Source: Deltaproteobacteria bacterium
GTDB lineage: Bacteria; Myxococcota_A; Bradymonadia; REDH01
DNA: 64,000 nucleotides
NCBI GenBank assembly: GCA_007693585.1
Contig: REDH01000072.1
Coordinates: forward strand, 1-64,000
Reading direction: 5' to 3'
Shown: positions 12,461 to 13,883 of the stretch, one piece after another
How the letters are laid out: every line of letters starts with the position of its first letter
Numbering within the stretch: position 1 is the first letter of the stretch
Notes under the pieces: model-generated
Seen by the model: only the letters and a program-made list of their open reading frames with translations
Told to the model about the DNA's origin: nothing
Databases searched by the model: none
Position numbers and translations under genes: made by a program

Positions 12461-13168
12461 TCAGCGCAGATACGCCCCGTCGTTCACGTCCAGCGTCGAC
12501 CCGTTCACGTAGGCCGGACTCCGCGTCCCCAGCCACACGATGACCTCCGCAACCTCCTCCGGGCGGGCGAAGCGACCGGTCATGACACTGCCCGCGATCT
12601 GCGCCTTCCGCGCCTCCGGAATGGACGCCAGCATCGCCGTCTCCACCGGACCCGGCGCCACCGCGTTCACCAGCACCCCGCCCGGACCGAGCAGCCTCGC
12701 GAAACTCCGCGTCGCGCTCAGCAACGCCGCCTTCGTCATCCCGTACCAGATGTCCGGATGACCCATCTGGCCCGCGATCGACGACACGTTCACCACGCGC
12801 CCTCCCCCCCGATCCAGCATCCCCGGAGCCACGGCACGGATCAGCGCCACCGGCGACTCCAGGTTCACCGCAAGCGTACGACGACGAGACTCCTCCGGAT
12901 ACGCGTCCCACGGCGCCGAACACATGATGCCCGCATTGTTCACGAGCACGTCCACCGGACCAAGCTCCTCCACCAGCGCCGCAATCCCGCCCGTCTGCTC
13001 CAGATCGAACGGCACCAGCACCGCCGACGACGCACCGGGCAACGACCACTCCGGACGCGCCCGACGCGCCAGCCCCGTCACCCGATACCCCAGTGCGGCA
13101 AAACCCTGCGCCGCCGCAAGACCAATCCCCGCGCTCGCACCCGTGATCAGCACGTGTGGTGCCGTCAT
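12461..13168 (-). CDS. Short-chain dehydrogenase/reductase (SDR), downstream of TetR gene
   Basis: 235 residues. It has all classical SDR elements: the TGASAGIG cofactor loop near the N-terminus, NNAG, VVNVSSIAGQ with the catalytic Ser, and YGMTK as the YxxxK active site. The C-terminus GSTLDVNDGAYLR is typical of FabG-like and 3-hydroxyacyl/sugar-alcohol SDRs. The substrate cannot be assigned. The start codon overlaps the stop of the TetR gene by 4 bp (ATGA), so the two are translationally coupled and the TetR protein probably controls this enzyme. Confidence 0.9.
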   Translation of the reverse strand: MTAPHVLITGASAGIGLAAAQGFAALGYRVTGLARRARPEWSLPGASSAVLVPFDLEQTGGIAALVEELGPVDVLVNNAGIMCSAPWDAYPEESRRRTLAVNLESPVALIRAVAPGMLDRGGGRVVNVSSIAGQMGHPDIWYGMTKAALLSATRSFARLLGPGGVLVNAVAPGPVETAMLASIPEARKAQIAGSVMTGRFARPEEVAEVIVWLGTRSPAYVNGSTLDVNDGAYLR

Positions 13169-13845
13169 GTCGCATCCTCCTGTCCCGACTCGTCCACCCC
13201 GTCCCGCTCGAGCTGCGCGAGCAACGCGTCCACCACCCAGTGCAGATGCGCCCGCCGCTCCGCCAGCGACGCGTCGTCCAGCGGATCCCCACCCCACAGC
13301 GGCGCAAGCGCTGGCGCATACGTGTAGTAGTTCGTCACCACCGCCGAGATGCTCACGAACAGATGCCGCGCCGCCGTCGGACCCTCCGCCGGCGCAAGCC
13401 CCGACAGCGCCTCGCGCGTCCACTCGAACAGCGGCCGAAGGTTCTCCCGGATTCGATCCCCGAACGGACCACCACCGGCAAGCTGATGCTGCACGATCCG
13501 CGGATACCCCCGGTGCTCCTCGATGAACGAAACGTACGCATCCACCAGCCGGTGCATCCGCTCGCGAAGCGTCCCCCCCCCGTCCAGCGCCCCCGCCAGC
13601 GCCTCGATGTGACGACGGTAGTACCGCGCCAGCACCCGATCGATCAGACCCGCCTTGCTGCCGTAGTAGTAGAAGACAAGCGCGTTGTTCACCCCCGCGG
13701 GCGCCGCCCCCCCCCCCCCCCCAAACCCCACCCCAACCCCCCACACCCCCACCCCCAACCCCCCGTCGAGGATCGCCATCGCCGTGTCCCCCCTCTCCTC
13801 CGGAGGGGCTGGCGTGATGTCGTGTGCGGGGTCAGGGCGCTTCAT
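13165..13845 (-). CDS. TetR-family regulator with the HTH replaced by a G/T-only tract
   Basis: 226 residues from the ATG at 13845. The part after residue 49 is a good TetR protein: AGVNNALVFYYYGSKAGLIDRV is the end of the helix-turn-helix plus helix 4, followed by an all-helical ligand domain. Residues 24-27 (AILD) are the usual start of helix 1. Between them, where helices 1-3 should be, the sequence is Gly/Val only, encoded by 58 bases that are all G or T on the coding strand. The number of residues in this gap (22) equals what an intact TetR HTH would have. As written the protein could not bind DNA normally. I suspect base-calling error rather than real loss (see findings). It is the first gene of a TetR-SDR operon, divergent from the TPP enzyme. 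Confidence 0.8.
   Translation of the reverse strand: MKRPDPAHDITPAPPEERGDTAMAILDGGLGVGVWGVGVGFGGGGGAAPAGVNNALVFYYYGSKAGLIDRVLARYYRRHIEALAGALDGGGTLRERMHRLVDAYVSFIEEHRGYPRIVQHQLAGGGPFGDRIRENLRPLFEWTREALSGLAPAEGPTAARHLFVSISAVVTNYYTYAPALAPLWGGDPLDDASLAERRAHLHWVVDALLAQLERDGVDESGQEDAT
13707..13764. other. 58-base C/A-only low-complexity tract inside the TetR gene
   Basis: Every base from 13707 to 13764 is C or A on the plus strand, including a run of 16 C. The complement is G/T-only with at least six G runs of four or more, so it could form a G-quadruplex. It interrupts otherwise normal coding sequence without changing the expected length. No other such tract was seen in the window. Confidence 0.9.
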
Positions 13846-13883
13846 GACGAGGACACTAACGGCACCTCCCGTCCTGAGCAAGC

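Follow-up and report, generated by a model that had tools for sequence, protein, structure and literature searches.

Two-colour sequencing instruments call an absent signal as G, and persistent loss of signal yields poly-G (PMC13218037), which tools including fastp trim from the read tails of NextSeq and NovaSeq data (PMC12527978). The usual two-colour poly-G lies at the tail of a read, where it is trimmed or ends a contig. The tract described here resembles this Illumina artefact (PMC13218037) in that runs of G would stand for missing signal, and the assembly that contains it has many such runs at its contig ends. Unlike the usual form, the tract is internal, mixed with T, length-preserving and placed within a long contig. 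Our search of the literature returned the general poly-G artefact, but no account of assembled tracts that are internal and keep the original length. The affected gene resembles the TetR family (PF00440) in its recognition helix, in the region after it and in its C-terminal domain (44–54% identity to homologues), but, unlike family members, its deposited sequence has no TetR similarity at the end of helix 1 and over most of helix 2.

A two-letter tract within a TetR-family gene

We analysed a window comprising positions 1–64,000 of a 181,782-base contig (C60) from a genome of 4.97 Mb in 223 contigs (97.7% complete, 0.5% contamination). The features of the affected gene are as follows.

13165..13845, minus strand: TetR-family regulator gene, 226 amino acids from the likely ATG at 13845
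13165..13881, minus strand: mechanical open reading frame around this gene, open through the tract
13707..13764, minus (coding) strand: G/T-only tract of 58 bases, ending in 16 G at the 3' end on this strand
13699..13764, minus strand: GGLGVGVWGVGVGFGGGGGAAP, the 22 amino acids that separate ILD from AGVNN, made up of the tract and AAP and showing no TetR similarity
13664..13698, minus strand: recognition-helix region, intact, AGVNNALVFYYY, aligned with 19 homologues

The plus strand at 13707–13764 consists of exactly 58 bases that are A or C only, and this base composition bears out the G/T-only coding-strand tract reported in the initial annotation. No other run restricted to A/C or to G/T in the 64-kb window is longer than 18 bases. 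In 200 order-1 Markov sequences matched to the dinucleotide content of the window, the longest such run averaged 18.8 bases and reached at most 32, so that a run of 58 bases is not a product of chance. The tract is dominated by G on one strand, and its T calls grow sparser from 5' to 3' along the minus strand. We searched the same assembly for a second copy of the TetR locus and found none, and a scan of viral contigs turned up no relatives.

That the gene belongs to the TetR family is evident from the part of the protein after the tract. Its C-terminal part is homologous to TetR proteins, with a best E value of 3e-50 among homologues in genomes of the same class, identity of at most 54% to homologues in public genomes across the post-tract part, and a match to the TetR-like regulator PDB 3f1b (E = 1.6e-8); matches to the Pfam TetR C-terminal families were all below threshold. 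By contrast with two homologues that scored 57.7 and 67 bits against Pfam TetR_N (PF00440), the deposited protein matched only profile positions 23–47 of 47 and, at 16.4 bits, fell short of the cut-off of 24. A full N-terminal helix-turn-helix that passes the Pfam threshold is thus missing, and the shortfall is restricted to the tract.

The tract replaces bases without changing length

We compared the segment with 13 relatives and 6 public homologues, and none of them has such a tract. The spacing from ILD, or IL(D), to AGVNN is 22 residues in all 19 homologues and also here, which agrees with the residue count that had been expected of an intact helix-turn-helix. Over the first 19 codons of the segment, mean amino acid identity to the 13 relatives was 4.5%, against 46% among the relatives themselves; just downstream, identity was 49% to the relatives and 48% among them. 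Because the 22-residue spacing is kept while identity falls to 4.5% inside the segment versus 49% downstream, we conclude that bases were replaced without an insertion or deletion, as had been proposed. The last codons of the segment, GCG GCG CCC, contain C and are essentially outside the tract.

The tract had also been described as overwriting helices 1–3. With helices assigned by the general TetR scheme, the bases it replaces run from the end of helix 1 through the turn into most of helix 2; the start of helix 1 at ILD and recognition helix 3 are intact and lie outside it. Since the recognition helix is intact, the earlier title of a DNA-binding helix overwritten overstates the damage.

The neighbouring gene on the same strand was recorded as follows.

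12461..13168, minus strand: SDR-type dehydrogenase gene, MTAPHVLITGASAGIG..., 235 amino acids, assigned by the TGxxxGIG motif alone

Its start overlaps the TetR stop by 4 bases (ATGA), an arrangement that suggests that the two genes may be co-translated. We found no SDR motif beside the TetR homologues in the loci of the 13 relatives.

Poly-G elsewhere in the assembly and in related genomes

Runs of at least 14 consecutive G occur at 27 sites in the 223-contig assembly. At 22 of these sites a contig end is no more than about 70 bases away, and several contigs carry a pure run of 30–51 G that reaches the last base (C56, C92, C128, C136, C204 and C216). This excess is extreme (p about 1e-40) because 100-base contig ends make up only about 0.9% of the assembly. 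Genuine G-rich sequence can also break assemblies, and poly-G at contig ends is therefore not proof when taken alone. The runs at contig ends pointed outward, the orientation that 3' read tails would have, in 14 cases and inward in 8, a difference that is not significant (p = 0.14). At the starts of C164 and C213, the first 35 bases comprise 16–17 G followed by 16 C, which look as if poly-G reads had overlapped their own complement.

One internal case is C188, in which a 57-base C/G-only tract lies between perfect 54-base direct copies (546–599 and 657–710). Tract and duplication fall in frame inside an XPB-like helicase gene and add 37 codons to it, and both copies of the duplicated peptide align to identical residues of a solved XPB protein. 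Because the duplicated peptide aligns twice to one stretch of XPB, this tract is clearly an assembly artefact, a misassembly through poly-G, and the assembly thus holds at least one poly-G misassembly in another gene. Further internal tracts at C85:1884, C148:33488, C201:3469 and C209:350 are ambiguous: they are intergenic, fall in the proline-rich linker of a lipoprotein or may be G-rich by nature. The one on C201 (3469–3515), in which G and T are mixed (GGGGGGTGGGGTGTGGGG...), precedes the start of an open reading frame and may have arisen naturally or through the same artefact. We also considered a 13-mer of adapter sequence at C95:30282, and treated it as natural because it lies in apparent coding sequence away from any poly-G and about 0.15 such matches are expected by chance.

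Across 38 genomes, 25 had no run of at least 14 G, including five of the same family (G001–G005), and two others had 32 (G015) and 116 (G033). Poly-G is therefore patchy and does not follow kinship, which is the pattern expected from differences between sequencing projects. One contig end of the related genome G015 (C150, 7400–7459) runs into an Illumina adapter and then poly-G, which is the signature of reads leaving a short insert into darkness; it also means that untrimmed adapter is present in a public genome. G033, a genome of the same class (loci L128–L136), carries some of its G runs in long mixed G/C blocks, for example L136, and its assembly looks heavily affected by poly-G. In the assembly studied here, the tracts are scattered, concentrated at contig ends and missing from close relatives.

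Origin of the tract

Together, these data strongly support the initial suggestion of dark-signal base-calling: poly-G at contig ends, the C188 misassembly, the clean genomes of the same family and the adapter followed by poly-G in G015 all point to it. We consider it very probable that the tract has no counterpart in the organism and consists of two-colour dark-signal G miscalls built into the assembly; the TetR-family regulator of the bacterium itself is probably ordinary and intact. On a presumed two-colour instrument, signal would have been lost over the tract in a single read, or in a small number of duplicates, along the minus strand, during what would have been a transient dark period. 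The dark cycles would have been called G with a few leftover T, ending in the 16 G, and the assembler would have retained the path that carried this sequence. Every dark cycle would still have contributed one base, which would keep both length and frame; that the length is kept makes miscalled cycles a better fit than mutation. In the NextSeq and NovaSeq 6000 scheme, the base with green signal only is T, so that weak leftover green signal may have been read as T among the G, an idea that fits the thinning of T calls along the minus strand before the final 16 G. Against dark-signal miscalling stands the return of normal sequence after the tract, as a read gone dark is normally dark through to its end. 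The lack of a significant outward bias among the G runs at contig ends also counts against it. The tract also lies 13.7 kb inside a 182-kb contig, and some path must therefore have supported it.

Another artefactual route, in which two poly-G contig ends were merged or a gap was filled with poly-G reads, appears unlikely to us. The assembly does contain poly-G ends in both orientations, and C188 provides an example of a join through a G/C tract. C188, however, has a flanking duplication and added length, whereas we found no direct repeat of at least 10 bases and no inverted repeat of at least 9 bases across the flanks of the TetR tract, and on this route its exactly right length would be coincidental, a matter of luck only. 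We therefore favour merging or gap filling less, both because there is no flanking duplication and because the match in length would be luck.

The alternative offered in the initial annotation, that a genuine G-rich stretch destroyed the TetR DNA-binding domain, is very unlikely, whether the result is taken as a pseudogene or the stretch as a G-quadruplex-like or switchable one. In its favour, the deposited sequence reads this way, the tract leaves the frame open and the contig is long. It would nonetheless require dozens of bases within a stretch of 58 to have been substituted, every one by G or T, with clean flanks and without an insertion or deletion, and we know of no mutational process that produces such confined G/T-only substitutions. 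In addition, no homologue carries the tract, and poly-G contamination of this assembly has been demonstrated. That a genuine G/T-only tract abolishes TetR DNA binding, for example as a hypermutable G-rich switch over the adjacent dehydrogenase gene, is scarcely credible.

Loss of one colour channel, which would turn C into G and A into T and leave the tract as the true sequence written in two letters, would also yield G/T-only sequence of unchanged length but is barely plausible, as homologues mapped to G/T fitted no better than shuffled codons (p 0.28–0.91 for 13 homologues, a weak test because identity to the homologues does not exceed about 54%) and GGG stands opposite conserved codons that contain T or A (F in helix 1 and I in helix 2).

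Implications

Our preferred explanation, dark-signal miscalling, means that such G calls can occur in frame in the interior of a long contig, even in a genome that nominally ranks as high-quality, and that annotation would accept the resulting protein despite its meaningless segment. The tract teaches nothing new about the biology of the regulator and serves as a warning for quality control: a screen of assemblies for long two-letter tracts rich in G, especially at contig ends, would find similar cases.
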